From Candidatus Mediterraneibacter pullistercoris (GTDB lineage: Bacteria > Bacillota > Clostridia > Lachnospirales > Lachnospiraceae): a DNA stretch of 64,000 nucleotides. The stretch spans positions 141,193 through 205,192 of the forward strand of contig DXAU01000030.1 of NCBI GenBank assembly GCA_019116885.1, written 5' to 3'. The notes beneath the pieces were generated by a model. The model was not told the origin of the DNA. It saw only the letters and a list, made by a program, of their open reading frames with translations, and did no database searches. Position 1 is the first letter of the stretch, and each line of letters begins with the position of its first letter. This document shows, piece by piece, positions 42,590 through 48,962 of this stretch. Made by a program: the position numbers and the translations under genes.

Positions 42590-44314
42590 TTAGTTTTTTT
42601 CAATCCCGAGATAGGGAAGAACGTTATCGTAAATATTCCGGAGTACCGGAGCCGCGATTGTTCCGCCATAATATATGCCTTTCGGATCATGTATGATGAC
42701 AATTCCCAGGATCTGCGGATCATCTGCCGGAGCGAAACCGATAAAAGAAGAGATATATTTGTTGGCGCTTCTTGGCAGCGTCTGCGAGGTGGCTGTCTTT
42801 CCGCCGATGGAATACCCCTCAATATACCCGTTCTTCCCTGATCCTTCGGAGACAACGCTCTCGAGAAGCATCTGCATCGTCTCTGAGGTTTCTTCTGATA
42901 CTATCCCATCCTGAGTTTCATACTCGAACTCTTCTATAAGTTCTCCGTCATCCCCGACGGTTCCTACCGCAATGTGAGGAGTCACTCTCGTACCACCGTT
43001 TATAATAGAACTTACTGTAACTGCCATCTGGATAGGGGTGACCTGGAACGACTGGCCGAATGTCATAGTGGCGAGCTCTACCGTTCCGATGTCTTCTTTT
43101 CTGTGCATGATCGTCCCCGCCTCCCCCGGAAGATCTACTCCTGTAAGCTCAAGCAGTCCGAAATCCCTGAAATAGTCATAGAAACGGTCTGCGCCGAGCC
43201 TGAGTCCGATGTCCATAAAGACCGGGTTGCAGGAGTTCTGTATCCCCTGGACAAATGTCTCCTGCCCATGTCCGCCCACTTTGTGGCACCGTATCTTCCG
43301 ATCCTCAACAATCCGGTATCCGGGACAGACAAAGGTATCGTCAAGATCCACTACCCCTTCTTCTAGGCAGGCTGAAGCCGTTATAATCTTAAATGTAGAG
43401 CCCGGTTCATAAGTATCGTTGATACAGCGATTACGCCACATCTGGTTAAGCTGTTCCTGCAGTTCCTCATCCGAAAGCGACTCTTCATCCACACCTGTAT
43501 TCAGTTCATATGGTTCGTTCAAGTTGAATTCCGGAACATTGACCATGGCGTAGATTTCTCCGTTCTGAGGATTCATGAGGAGAATGGACACCGCTTCTGC
43601 CTGTTTTTCTTCCAAAACATTAAGCGCTTCCTGCTGACAATAAGCCTGTATGTTATAATCCAGGCTTACTTTCAGTGTCTCGCCAGCCACTGGTTCGATT
43701 CTGTCCTCGGCCACCCCTTCCAGTTCAACTCCTCTCGCATCTGTCACCGTTAGTATCGTTCCGTTTGTGCCTTTCAGATAATCCTCGTATTTCACCTCGA
43801 GCCCTATGATTCCCTGATTGTCTCCTCCGGTAAATCCCAGCACTCTGGACGCCAGCTCATCATACGGATAATATCTTCTGTAGTCTTCGTCCACTTTGAC
43901 TCCTGCTAGATCGTACTCCCGGATTCTGTCTCCAGTCTCCTTGTCCACATTCGTTTTGATCTTCTCCATGGAAGACACTTTCTCTACTTTCTCCCGCACC
44001 TCGCTCTCGTCGAGCCCAAGTTCACTGGCTAGCACTTCTGTCACCAGGTCAGGATTCTCTATCTGGCTGTGTATCACAGAGATAGTACATACTGTCCGGT
44101 TCGTGGCCAGGACAACCCCGTTGCGGTCCACAATCTCCCCCCTTGCAGCTTTTATCTCCCTCTCCCTCTCGTGGAGATCCTGGGCCAGCTCCTGATAATA
44201 CTCAGCGTCAAATATCATGAGATATACCAGTCTCCCGATCAATGCAAAGAGAACGGCCGCCGCGCACAGGAAGACGACAAGGATCTTTTTTCTGTTATAT
44301 GTCTTGTTCTTCAT
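42590..44314 (-). CDS. Class B penicillin-binding protein (FtsI/SpoVD family), copy 2
   Basis: GSTFKI (SxxK) and GKTATSQTLPRSANKYISSFIGFAP; likely start MKNKTYNRKK at 44314 (ORF opens upstream at 44458). Confidence 0.93.
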   Translation of the reverse strand: MKNKTYNRKKILVVFLCAAAVLFALIGRLVYLMIFDAEYYQELAQDLHEREREIKAARGEIVDRNGVVLATNRTVCTISVIHSQIENPDLVTEVLASELGLDESEVREKVEKVSSMEKIKTNVDKETGDRIREYDLAGVKVDEDYRRYYPYDELASRVLGFTGGDNQGIIGLEVKYEDYLKGTNGTILTVTDARGVELEGVAEDRIEPVAGETLKVSLDYNIQAYCQQEALNVLEEKQAEAVSILLMNPQNGEIYAMVNVPEFNLNEPYELNTGVDEESLSDEELQEQLNQMWRNRCINDTYEPGSTFKIITASACLEEGVVDLDDTFVCPGYRIVEDRKIRCHKVGGHGQETFVQGIQNSCNPVFMDIGLRLGADRFYDYFRDFGLLELTGVDLPGEAGTIMHRKEDIGTVELATMTFGQSFQVTPIQMAVTVSSIINGGTRVTPHIAVGTVGDDGELIEEFEYETQDGIVSEETSETMQMLLESVVSEGSGKNGYIEGYSIGGKTATSQTLPRSANKYISSFIGFAPADDPQILGIVIIHDPKGIYYGGTIAAPVLRNIYDNVLPYLGIEKN

Positions 44315-44321
44315 AAAAAAT

Positions 44322-44367
44322 ACCCTGCAAAAGATGTTGTTACAGCTTATTACATCTTCTGCAGGGT
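44322..44367 (-). promoter_or_regulatory. Terminator-like hairpin at the RBS of the second PBP gene
   Basis: Minus strand: acatcttttgcagggt arm pairs with accctgcagaagatgt (16 bp, 1 mismatch), followed by ATTTTTT then ATG at 44314; the AGGG SD candidate lies in the 3' arm. Confidence 0.65.
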
Positions 44368-44402
44368 TATTCATTTTTTCCGCTGTCTCTGCCGTCTGCA
44401 TT

Positions 44403-46409
44403 TTACTCCGGACTGTTTCCCGAAGCCCAGTCGTCAAGATCCGGGTCATAACTCTCATCTATGTAAGAACCGTCGGGATTATCATATGTTTCCTCATAAT
44501 TCTCATCATAATCTGTATAATCCGTATTCTCCACGCCATTCCCTTCTGTCTGATTCTCATCGCCGCTTTCCGCAATCGTCGTGACGCCCAGATACGGAAA
44601 CGCTTCTTCCATAATCGACTTGCTCAGTTCCAGTACGAGCGAACTGTCATCCTGGGCATATGTGTTCGGTTCATCTACTACGACATAGATGGCCACTTCC
44701 GGATTATCCATGGGGGCGAATCCAATATAGGATAGCAGATATTTACCATTTCCGCGGGGAAGTTTCTCGGCTGTTCCCGTCTTGCCCGCAATCTCATACC
44801 CGTCTACCTGCGCTCTCTGTCCGGTTCCATAGTCCATCACGGCTTTCATGTACTGCTTCACCATGCTGGAAGTCTCAGCGGAAACGGTCTTTCTAAGAAG
44901 CACCGGGTCTTTTGTCTCTATTACATTGCCCTCTTCATCCTGTATCTGTTTCACGATATGCGGCTCATAATAGTAGCCGCCGTTGATCAGAGAACAAAAC
45001 GCTGAGATCATCTGGGTCATGGTCACATTGAAGTTCTGGCCGAATGAATTCGTCGCAAGGTCTACATCTGACATATTTTTTGCTGTATAGAGAAGTCCCT
45101 CTGTCTCCGCCTCACCCGGAAGATCTATCCCGGTATACTCTCCAAACCCGAAGATATGCTGATATCTGGAAAAGTCTTCAGCACCTATGGCAAGCCCCAT
45201 ATCCATCAGCGCCACATTGCACGAATTGGCAAGTGAATCTTGTATCGATTCTGTTCCATGTCCCTCTTTATGAGCGCAGCTTATATCTGTGTCCAGGACA
45301 GTCTTTGAGCCATCACAGTAATAATTCTCATTTCCCAAAATCGCTCCCGACTCCAGCCCTGCCGCTATCGTGAACGGCTTTGCCGTCGATCCCGGCTCAT
45401 AGGCGTCGCTGACACAGAAGTTCCGCCAGAGATTATTCATAGCCTCGACCTGCTCATCCTCTGTCATTTCTGCCCATTGCTCATCAGAATACAGACCGGA
45501 TAAGTCACGGGGACTGTTCAGATCAAAGTTGGGGTATGATGCTTCGGCGAGAATCTCTCCCGTATTCGGGTTCATAATGATCACCGCCGTATTTTTGCTG
45601 CCCGGATTCCCCTCTGATGCATGTTCCTGGTTAAACTCCAGAATACATTTTTCCACGATATTCTGTAGAGTCACATCGATAGTTGAAACGACCGTATCTC
45701 CGTTCTGGGCAGGCTTTACCGTCCGCTCCACAGCAGACTCGGTATCAAAATATCCGTACTCTCTTCCGTCAGTCCCGTTCAGGATATCATTGTAGGCGCT
45801 TTCTATCCCGATCGCTCCCTGGTTTCCATCATAAATAAACCCGATAACGTCGCTCGCCATACTTCCGTACGGATAGGTTCTCGTGTAGTCATCCTCAAGC
45901 CATATGCCCCGCACATTCGGATAGTTCTCATCGTCACTGTCTATGTCATTGAATTTCTGAGCCGTTGCATAGTCAATCCCTTCAGCCAGGATCTCATACT
46001 GGCTGTCCGGCTTCGTCTCTATCAGTTCATCTACTACACTCTCCTTGATTCCGAAACATTCTGAGAGTACTGCTTTCGTAGGCTCGATATATTCCTCTTT
46101 ATCGGTCATTACCGCCACGTCGAGTATCACATTGTAGACACGCTCGCTGGTCGCCATCTTCGTGCCGTTTCTGTCAACAATATCGCCTCTTTTGTATGCG
46201 ATCACACGGCTGTCATAGTTCTGCTGATCCAGTACGACTTTCGTGTAGCTGCTGCCTCTTGTGACATTGATCCAGGTGATTCTTCCTATAAGAACAACAA
46301 AAGCCAGTATCACTGCCATGAATAGCATTACCAGCTTCCGTTGCATCCTCGTCGGAAATTTTTTAGTTAAAAATTCAAATCTGTTCTTTTTTCTGCTTCT
46401 TCCAGCCAT
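44403..46409 (-). CDS. Class B penicillin-binding protein (FtsI/SpoVD family), copy 1
   Basis: 668 aa; GSTAKPFTIAAGLE, SLANSCNVALMDMG, GKTGTAEKLPRGNGKYLLSYIGFAP; acidic Tyr-rich C-terminal tail. Confidence 0.95.
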   Translation of the reverse strand: MAGRSRKKNRFEFLTKKFPTRMQRKLVMLFMAVILAFVVLIGRITWINVTRGSSYTKVVLDQQNYDSRVIAYKRGDIVDRNGTKMATSERVYNVILDVAVMTDKEEYIEPTKAVLSECFGIKESVVDELIETKPDSQYEILAEGIDYATAQKFNDIDSDDENYPNVRGIWLEDDYTRTYPYGSMASDVIGFIYDGNQGAIGIESAYNDILNGTDGREYGYFDTESAVERTVKPAQNGDTVVSTIDVTLQNIVEKCILEFNQEHASEGNPGSKNTAVIIMNPNTGEILAEASYPNFDLNSPRDLSGLYSDEQWAEMTEDEQVEAMNNLWRNFCVSDAYEPGSTAKPFTIAAGLESGAILGNENYYCDGSKTVLDTDISCAHKEGHGTESIQDSLANSCNVALMDMGLAIGAEDFSRYQHIFGFGEYTGIDLPGEAETEGLLYTAKNMSDVDLATNSFGQNFNVTMTQMISAFCSLINGGYYYEPHIVKQIQDEEGNVIETKDPVLLRKTVSAETSSMVKQYMKAVMDYGTGQRAQVDGYEIAGKTGTAEKLPRGNGKYLLSYIGFAPMDNPEVAIYVVVDEPNTYAQDDSSLVLELSKSIMEEAFPYLGVTTIAESGDENQTEGNGVENTDYTDYDENYEETYDNPDGSYIDESYDPDLDDWASGNSPE

Positions 46410-46421
46410 ATTTCTATATCC

Positions 46422-46967
46422 CTATTCAGACACGCCGCTTGATTTCGCAAGCACTCCATTTTCCGGTATGTCACTGTACTGCTTTACGTAGTCGCCGGCA
46501 GGGCTGTCATACTCCACTACCGTCCCTTCTTCTACAGGTACCATTCCCATTTCATTTATGGCTTTCTCACGTATTGTTACGAGATTGACCGAATCAACTG
46601 CCGCATTATACCTCGTATCGTTCGCCTCTGTCAGAGCGGCCAGTTCTTCCTGAAGTGCAGTCACATTCTCTGACCTGCTCACCACATCAGACTGAAGATT
46701 CAGATACATCACACAGATCAGCACAGCGCAGATTGCCGCTGCGGTAAGAAACACAGCATACGCCGGACTTATTTTCATCGCGCGCTTCCGGTTTCTCTGC
46801 ACCTGACGGCTGGCTTTCTTCGGCTGTCTCTGGCGCGTCCTTGGTTCTCTTAAAGGAGCCGGTTCTGCCTGACGCACTGTATTCCCATATACATAGAACT
46901 GTCCCTGGCCGTTTCCCCTTTGACCGGATCTCATGTTGTCATATGTACGATAATACCTTGCTGCCAT
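46422..46967 (-). CDS. FtsL/septum formation initiator-like protein
   Basis: 181 aa; basic N-term, one TM, coiled coil SRSENVTALQEELAAL; position between rsmH and PBP. Confidence 0.75.
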   Translation of the reverse strand: MAARYYRTYDNMRSGQRGNGQGQFYVYGNTVRQAEPAPLREPRTRQRQPKKASRQVQRNRKRAMKISPAYAVFLTAAAICAVLICVMYLNLQSDVVSRSENVTALQEELAALTEANDTRYNAAVDSVNLVTIREKAINEMGMVPVEEGTVVEYDSPAGDYVKQYSDIPENGVLAKSSGVSE

Positions 46968-47047: not shown

Positions 47048-47983
47048 TCATATCCGTTCAAATATTCTGAGTTTCGCACTTTTTGAACGGCTGTTGGACT
47101 CCATCTCCTCCTCTGACGGAAGGATTGGTTTCCTTGTGATCACTTTCCCTTTTGACGTCCTCCCACAAACGCATACGGGAAAATTAGCGGGACAGATGCA
47201 CGGATCTTCATTTTTTCGGAATGTACTCTTTACGATCCGATCCTCAAGTGAATGAAAGGTGATGATACAGATCCGTCCCCCCGGACGGAGCATATCGATC
47301 ATATCATCCAGCGAACACTTCAACACTTCCAGTTCGCTGTTCAATTCAATCCTTATGGCCTGGAACGTCCGTTTCGACGGATGTCCTGACGTTTTCTGGA
47401 TCTTCATCGGTATTGAGCGTCTTATGATCTCATTTAGTTGTCCCGTTGTCTCGACCGGCGCCTTCTGCCGCGCTTCCACGATATGTTTCGCGATATTTTT
47501 CGCAAAACGTTCTTCCCCATAATCGCGTATCACACGGTACAGATCTGCCTCGCTGTAGTCATTGACAATGTCTCTTGCCGTCATCTCCTGTCTCTGGTCC
47601 ATCCTCATATCAAGAGGCGCGTCCACCCGATAGGAAAATCCCCGGTCCGCTGTGTCGAGCTGATAAGACGACACGCCCAGATCGACTACGATACCGTCCA
47701 CACTGTCAATTCCTCTCTTTTGGAGCTGCGGCTTCATATCACGATAGTTGCTCCGTATTATCGTGACCTTCTCCCCGAAGCCTTCCAGACGCTTTTTTGC
47801 CGCTTCTATCGCGTCAGCGTCCTGGTCTATTCCTATAAATCTCCCCTTGCCGCCCAGCCGGCTGCAAACTTCAAATGCATGTCCGCCACCTCCTAAAGTA
47901 GCGTCCACATAAATGCCGTCTGGTCTGACATTGAGCCCGTCCACTGTCTCATACAGCAGAACAGATGTGTGTTTGAATGCCAT
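47048..47983 (-). CDS. rsmH: 16S rRNA (cytosine(1402)-N(4))-methyltransferase
   Basis: 311 aa; [50 protein letters not shown]. Confidence 0.97.
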
Positions 47984-47995
47984 GGTATCCTCCCG

Positions 47996-48433
47996 TCAGA
48001 TCCTTATCCCTATGGATTCCATACGCTCTGCGATCGCATCCAGATCTTCTTCACTCACCTGGCTGCGTTCTTCCCAAAGAGCCTTGTCCCAGATCTCAAC
48101 GCGGTCCTGAACTCCCACAAGAACAACATCTTTCTCCAGATTTGCCGCTTTTCTGAGTGACGGTGGGATAAGAGCTCTACCCTGTTTGTCAAAATTCCCC
48201 TCAGAAGCGCTTCCGAAGAAATAGCGTTTAAAGATCCTGGCATCCTTGTTCATACGTGGTAAGGTTTCAAGCTCGGCGACGAATTTGTTCCATTCCTCCT
48301 GGGAATATACGAAGAGGCAGCCTTCCAGACCGTTACAAATGACAAAACTGTCACCCAGGTCATCCCTTAGCTTTGCCGGGATGATGAGTCTTCCCTTTTC
48401 ATCAATGCTATGGTTAAACTCTCCTAATAACAT
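47996..48433 (-). CDS. mraZ: Transcriptional regulator MraZ
   Basis: 145 aa; LGEFNHSIDEKGRLIIPAKLRDDLG and second SpoVT/AbrB-like repeat FDKQGRALIPPSLRKAANLEKDVVLVG. Confidence 0.97.
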   Translation of the reverse strand: MLLGEFNHSIDEKGRLIIPAKLRDDLGDSFVICNGLEGCLFVYSQEEWNKFVAELETLPRMNKDARIFKRYFFGSASEGNFDKQGRALIPPSLRKAANLEKDVVLVGVQDRVEIWDKALWEERSQVSEEDLDAIAERMESIGIRI

Positions 48434-48473
48434 CCGGAACCCTTTCTCTTTTCGTGAGCCTCCACATCGCTCC

Positions 48474-48528
48474 CCACTTTATACCACTATCCACCACTCT
48501 TTACCACTTGACTCCATTCTAAACCACT
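48474..48528 (-). promoter_or_regulatory. MraZ-box array: AGTGG repeats at exact 10-bp period
   Basis: CCACT on + strand at 48474, 48484, 48494, 48504, 48524, and CCATT at 48514 (AGTGG x5 and AATGG x1 on the mraZ coding strand). Confidence 0.88.
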
Positions 48529-48544
48529 GATCCCCCTTTTTCAA
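48516..48544 (-). promoter_or_regulatory. mraZ/dcw promoter
   Basis: Minus strand TTGAAA (48544-48539), 17-nt spacer, TAGAAT (48521-48516), interleaved with AGTGG repeats. Confidence 0.8.
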
Positions 48545-48710: not shown

Positions 48711-48962
48711 TCATTCTACTGAGGTCTCCTCAGTCAGGCTGTTCACATAATTCGTGACCGCATCATAATTTACTTCTGCAACTGCTCTCTCCCTGCCTGA
48801 TTCATACATATCATAAGCAGAATATCCGAGCCATCCCACGAGCGCGAGTCCTGCCAGCGTGAGAACACACTTGCGCACAACACTCATGATCCTCTGCTTC
48901 CGCATGATCTTCTTTCTGTTGGTTTTCTCCTGTTTGTATCTGTCTACCTTTTCCTGGCTCAT
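48711..48962 (-). CDS. Small single-TM protein of unknown function
   Basis: 83 aa; basic N-term, one TM (VLTLAGLALVGWLGYSAYDMY); own terminator. Confidence 0.65.
   Translation of the reverse strand: MSQEKVDRYKQEKTNRKKIMRKQRIMSVVRKCVLTLAGLALVGWLGYSAYDMYESGRERAVAEVNYDAVTNYVNSLTEETSVE

Follow-up and report, generated by a model that had tools for sequence, protein, structure and literature searches.

A six-box array extending into the core promoter of the dcw operon as a predicted, enlarged MraZ operator in Mediterraneibacter and its close relatives

Introduction

MraZ represses the dcw operon in Escherichia coli and binds direct repeats of the kind considered here in Mollicutes and Burkholderia (PMC8475190, PMC5282649, PMC7761207). 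The E. coli K-12 site, which we read directly from the genome sequence, has three boxes (AGTGGG, TGTGGG, and AAGTGGG), starting at +13 from the -10 element. In Mollicutes, the MraZ site is given as (AAAGTGKN3)3 in the accounts of Fisunov et al. 2016 found in PMC5282649 and PMC8475190. In Burkholderia cenocepacia, MraZ binds the PmraBc fragment, which has four repeats overlapping the transcription start site (TSS) (PMC7761207). The known MraZ operators have three or four boxes, all of them downstream of the -10 element. Here, we describe a predicted MraZ operator in a 64-kb stretch of DNA from Candidatus Mediterraneibacter pullistercoris (the whole stretch is called the window below), which departs from this arrangement in having six boxes, including one in the promoter spacer and one on the -10 element.

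Results

The dcw operon of the window

The first three genes of the operon are as follows.

47996..48433, minus strand: mraZ, 145 aa, dcw transcriptional repressor (TIGR00242, E = 1.2e-46)
47048..47983, minus strand: rsmH (mraW), second gene of the operon (TIGR00006, E = 1.9e-117)
46422..46967, minus strand: ftsL-like gene for a small division protein, third gene, assigned from its position and a weak FtsL_Actino match (5e-5) below cut-off

The MraZ reading frame matches TIGR00242 over its full length with a score of 158.3 bits (cut-off, 98.35), contains two PF02381 domains that are both above cut-off, and has a D-x-x-x-R motif in each half of its translation (DEKGR and DKQGR). It is 97 to 98% identical to MraZ of named relatives, which places the window in a Mediterraneibacter-like member of the Lachnospiraceae, and, as judged from its sequence, homologous to the MraZ proteins of solved structures 1n0e, 9qlr, 9qlg, and 9sx6. 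The gene order, with mraZ, rsmH, the weakly matching ftsL, and two transpeptidase genes, is that of a dcw operon. Tandem transpeptidase (PBP2/SpoVD-like) open reading frames occupy positions 42590-46409 of this cluster and overlap by 56 bp in the mechanical list of open reading frames. Between degV and the dcw promoter, positions 48711-48962 encode an 83-aa protein with a likely membrane segment, for which we found no NCBIfam match; it is followed by two terminator-like features, a long-looped inverted repeat (about 48661-48613) and a further stem (48610-48589).

Six boxes at 10-bp steps in and downstream of the promoter

The region upstream of mraZ has the following features.

48539..48544, minus strand: -35 element TTGAAA, found by consensus scan and nearly invariant in 75 clade promoters
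48524..48528, minus strand: box 1, AGTGG, inside the -35/-10 spacer (sequence and clade alignment)
48516..48521, minus strand: -10 element TAGAAT (TANAAT in relatives), found by consensus scan
48514..48518, minus strand: box 2, AATGG, which shares its AAT with the 3' half of the -10 hexamer (sequence and clade alignment)
48504..48508, minus strand: box 3, AGTGG, at the predicted TSS, the first of four canonical downstream boxes, with its GTGG core at +14 from the start of the -10 element
48494..48498, minus strand: box 4, AGTGG (sequence and clade alignment)
48484..48488, minus strand: box 5, AGTGG (sequence and clade alignment)
48474..48478, minus strand: box 6, AGTGG (AAAGTGGGG) (sequence and clade alignment)
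48462..48465, minus strand: GTGG located 12 bp beyond box 6 (11 to 12 bp in many relatives), possibly accessory
48441..48445, minus strand: AAAGG resembling a Shine-Dalgarno sequence, 7 nt 5' of the mraZ ATG (sequence)

A first-pass annotation of this DNA had reported AGTGG at 48528, 48508, 48498, 48488, and 48478 and AATGG at 48518, and our reading of the minus strand confirmed these starts and the identical 10-bp steps between them. The promoter that it had placed at 48544-48516 (TTGAAA-N17-TAGAAT) was recovered independently by a consensus scan. The predicted TSS, at 48510-48508, coincides with the start of box 3, and mraZ starts 40 nt past the array. Since it lies 12 bp past box 6, the possible accessory GTGG is out of phase. 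Two G-runs (AAGGGGTTGAAAAAGGGGG), which most clade members conserve, flank the -35 element at 48548-48545 and 48536-48532. Some relatives have ATGG at -17 in place of the second G-run, and this may be an additional box, located 11 bp ahead of box 1.

When we searched the 64-kb window for four AGTGG units at 10-bp spacing with up to 2 mismatches, the array was the sole match, and the pattern had 0 matches in 100 dinucleotide-preserving shuffles. In the organism's own genome (2.45 Mb, 92% complete), three RTGG units at 10-bp spacing occur only in the mraZ array, as four overlapping matches, and a reversed control pattern has 2 matches; this uniqueness is that of a pattern search for perfect boxes. 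The MraZ site of M. genitalium, according to the accounts of the Mollicutes work cited above, likewise lies at a single genomic locus.

Box number and placement were not taken as defining an MraZ operator. What we found here are GTGG-type direct repeats at 10 bp, a promoter directly upstream of mraZ-rsmH, and conservation of the repeats in orthologous mraZ promoters. The E. coli K-12 operator similarly has GTGG(G) boxes, exactly 10 bp apart and in equal orientation, upstream of mraZ-rsmH, but there are three of them, with none in the spacer or on the -10 element. The Mollicutes site shares the core and the 10-bp unit with the window and, in the accounts cited above, differs from it in having fewer units and an A+T-rich context. 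Like the window array, PmraBc of B. cenocepacia has 7-nt repeats with 3-nt spacers that overlap the TSS; unlike it, PmraBc has four repeats, which lie downstream of the -10 element. The AGTGG core named in the first-pass annotation is not a special version of the box, as those of E. coli also have the form (A/T)GTGGG and the consensus of the Lachnospiraceae boxes, AAAGTGGT, agrees with the AAAGTGK of Mollicutes.

Conservation of the array and variation in box number

We compared mraZ upstream regions of 30 genomes within the genus, of a family set with a single genome for each of about 150 genera, of 80 named relatives, and of samples of the class and phylum. Seventy-five distinct promoters of close relatives, a set that includes the more distant Lachnospiraceae L136 and L139 with five boxes and without box 1, align gap-free across the core. 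In this set, the TTG of the -35 element is 99 to 100% conserved, and in the -10 element (TANAAT) the T, A, A, A, and T are invariant and the third base is free. The GTGG of box 1 is present in 97% of the promoters, with variable neighboring bases that include the preceding base (-7), the AATGG of box 2 is present in 100%, and boxes 3 to 6 are conserved at 77 to 100% per base. Together with the sequence itself, these 75 promoters bear out the earlier description of one repeat in the spacer, AATGG on the -10 element, and four repeats downstream. Across 107 Lachnospiraceae genera, the high-information columns besides those of the promoter are boxes at 10-bp intervals with the consensus AAAGTGGT.

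Perfect six-box chains were present in 15 of 397 Lachnospiraceae genomes (12 of 334 genera), all of them just upstream of mraZ. These 15 chains share one layout, with GTGG in the spacer, AATGG on the TANAAT -10 element, and four boxes downstream, and the 14 besides the window's own end 21 to 58 nt upstream of the codon for a conserved Gly in the N-terminal part of MraZ. The first-pass annotation had made its reading depend on conservation in orthologous promoters; the six-box layout is indeed kept in the genus and in related genera, and six is the normal box number in the window's (Mediterraneibacter-like) genus and its close kin. In a tree built from MraZ and RsmH, the six-box rows fall inside one well-supported part (100/98), alongside five-box and +1-bp relatives. 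This suggests that a single origin of the six-box array is likely, though unproved, because few family rows serve as an outside comparison in the tree.

Outside this group, arrays are shorter. The longest exact 10-bp RTGG chain was three in 26 of 30 phylum genomes and in 16 of 28 class genomes, where each draw is represented by its highest-scoring MraZ hits and not by a random sample, and among 142 Lachnospiraceae genera it was four in 69, five in 10, and six in 5. The earlier statement that the window has two more units than is typical is therefore correct for the family, where the mode is four, and understates the case for the phylum, where it is three. Besides the window's own, we found no six-box MraZ array in 388 Clostridia genomes, only about 15 of which were Lachnospiraceae. 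One perfect six-unit ATGG match in this Clostridia set (G284:C206:10146-10199) is made of alternating 20-bp units (ATGGGGCTGCATGGAACTGC) and was rejected as another kind of repeat. Relatives such as L189 and L196 have up to eight boxes, at -17, -6, 4, 14, 24, 34, 44, and 55 from the -10 element. In four-box arrays of the family, such as those of L048, L054, and L197, a fifth GTGG or ATGG very often follows after 11 bp, not 10 (+57 from the start of the -10 element).

The promoter-embedded boxes and the phase of the array

In most Lachnospiraceae, the box that first follows the -10 element lies at +16; it lies at +14 in the window's clade and at +13 in E. coli. Because the downstream array thus has an offset near those of E. 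coli and other Lachnospiraceae, boxes 3 to 6 can be read as the ordinary operator, and by comparative inference the window site is a standard MraZ operator (boxes 3 to 6) plus two in-phase boxes embedded in the promoter. Most four-box arrays of the family resemble the window in having boxes at +14/16, +24/26, +34/36, and +44/46 from the start of the -10 element; they differ in usually starting at +16, without in-phase boxes in the core promoter, and often have a fifth box after an 11-bp step.

In the family sample, an in-phase box 2 occurs in 13 of the 19 genera with the array at +14, compared with 2 of the 73 with the array at +16, and an in-phase box 1 occurs in 9 of 19 and 0 of 73, respectively (Fisher P of ~1e-9 for box 2 and ~1e-7 for box 1, with kinship ignored and descent shared among the +14 genera). 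The extra boxes therefore track the phase of the array and not the promoter. When the array starts at +14, the AAT that closes the -10 element falls in phase and is turned into a box by the addition of GG; box 2 has the form AATGG because the -10 element and the box jointly require that sequence.

It could be argued that only boxes 3 to 6 are the MraZ operator and that the spacer GTGG and the TGG after the -10 element are box-like features of the promoter itself, belonging to its spacer or discriminator. Box 1 has no conserved A before its GTGG, and box 2 deviates from the consensus. A GTGG at -6 is also found, out of phase, in 18 of the 73 genera with the array at +16, so part of the role of box 1 may be in promoter function. 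However, this reading does not sit well with the tie between the in-phase boxes and the array offset or with a box 1 GTGG that is conserved between variable neighbors, and we consider it rather unlikely. The main evidence that boxes 1 and 2 would belong to the operator is their coupling to array phase across the sequences compared, an argument weakened by shared descent and by the out-of-phase GTGG in 18 of 73 genera.

Some sister genera have intermediate states (AGTAG or AATAGG), which are in keeping with a stepwise extension of the array. The 10-bp phasing noted in the first-pass annotation is exact in the window; it is not universal, as 11-bp steps between boxes occur in relatives, and these natural steps show that not every joint needs an exact 10-bp phase. 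Linker insertions of +1 bp are found between boxes 3 and 4 in L003, L111, L117, and L131, where they need four separate changes on the tree, and between boxes 5 and 6 in L047 and L129. A "3+3" subdivision of the array, suggested by the insertions between boxes 3 and 4, was rejected, since the +1 between boxes 5 and 6 in L047 and L129 leaves no clean split.

Explanations other than MraZ binding

The conserved feature might instead be a DNA G-quadruplex (G4) at the mraZ promoter. Such a structure was proposed for S. aureus in a study that describes, for several bacteria, a conserved G4 motif downstream of this promoter (PMC11796246). In E. coli, the MraZ boxes do make up a G3+ N1-7 motif (GGG-AAATTGT-GGGG-CAAAGT-GGG-AATAA-GGGG; L343:290-326), and in the window the G-runs flank the -35 element, with a G4Hunter score of 1.64 in one 25-mer. 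However, the window array does not contain four G-tracts of at least 3 with loops of 1 to 7, as in the S. aureus mraZ-type quadruplex, and no G3 N1-7 motif was found in it or in 84 Lachnospiraceae four-box arrays, in which GTGG and the 10-bp phase persist. A quadruplex would also have no need of helical phase, of the invariant T, or of the A that precedes this T. We regard this explanation as very unlikely, and the pattern of conservation indicates that the box, not a quadruplex, is the conserved feature in Lachnospiraceae. Because the E. coli boxes satisfy the G4 pattern and the Lachnospiraceae boxes do not, yet the boxes persist, claims of quadruplexes at mraZ promoters may reflect MraZ boxes.

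We find it very improbable that the repeats act in the mRNA leader, either as sites for a TRAP-like RNA-binding ring protein or through leader structure. Boxes 3 to 6 are transcribed, and inverted repeats that pair the last box with the leader occur more often in the clade than in shuffles (62% versus 18%), but this leader inverted repeat is not seen family-wide and no Rfam family scored above threshold. Boxes 1 and 2 are upstream of the start site and in phase with the rest, and since they are untranscribed they argue against action at the RNA level, as does a period equal to the DNA helical turn. In many close relatives (for example, in the leaders of L107, L120, L123, and L129), a GTGG located 11 to 12 bp beyond box 6 makes an inverted repeat with an inverted box of the leader (CCACTTTG, CCCACTT, or CACAT). 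A leader hairpin between the last box and such an inverted box was considered and rejected, as, across 104 genera of the family, inverted-box words and control words are similarly rare, despite the enrichment of the inverted repeat in close relatives.

A functionless, neutral expansion of a tandem repeat has in its favor the head-to-tail 10-bp units of the array (TRF period 10, 3.6 copies), but the linkers all differ (73% matches) and one layout recurs over many genera, only at mraZ, a conservation that refutes it and leaves its probability negligible.

Discussion

The site is very probably the operator through which MraZ autorepresses the dcw operon, with the core promoter occluded as well. 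The comparative evidence presents the six-box array as a real, conserved, lineage-specific enlargement of a known operator and as a predicted MraZ target. In the mechanism that we propose, MraZ made from the first gene of the operon would bind along a single face of the helix as a ring-shaped oligomer, with each box taken by one subunit. The bound protein would cover the -10 element, the start site, and roughly the initial 30 bases of the transcribed region, and RNA polymerase would be shut out, resulting in negative feedback on mraZ-rsmH-ftsL-pbp. The two extra boxes would be expected to raise cooperativity and tighten repression at low MraZ levels. The expectation of one box per subunit, together with the eight-box relatives L189 and L196, also raises the idea that one MraZ ring could engage all six boxes (up to eight in these relatives), so that the core promoter would be wrapped in a nucleosome-like way round most of the ring and would not touch just three or four subunits; we think this unlikely.

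Within the lineages compared, the size of the MraZ operator varies (three, four, or six boxes) and its position relative to the promoter is kept, and a 2-bp shift of the array lets extra boxes fit into the -10 element and the spacer. The relatives with +1-bp linkers are natural phase variants that would be useful experimentally. The natural series of box numbers makes it possible to test how many subunit-DNA contacts each ring makes and whether dcw autoregulation becomes tighter with more boxes.
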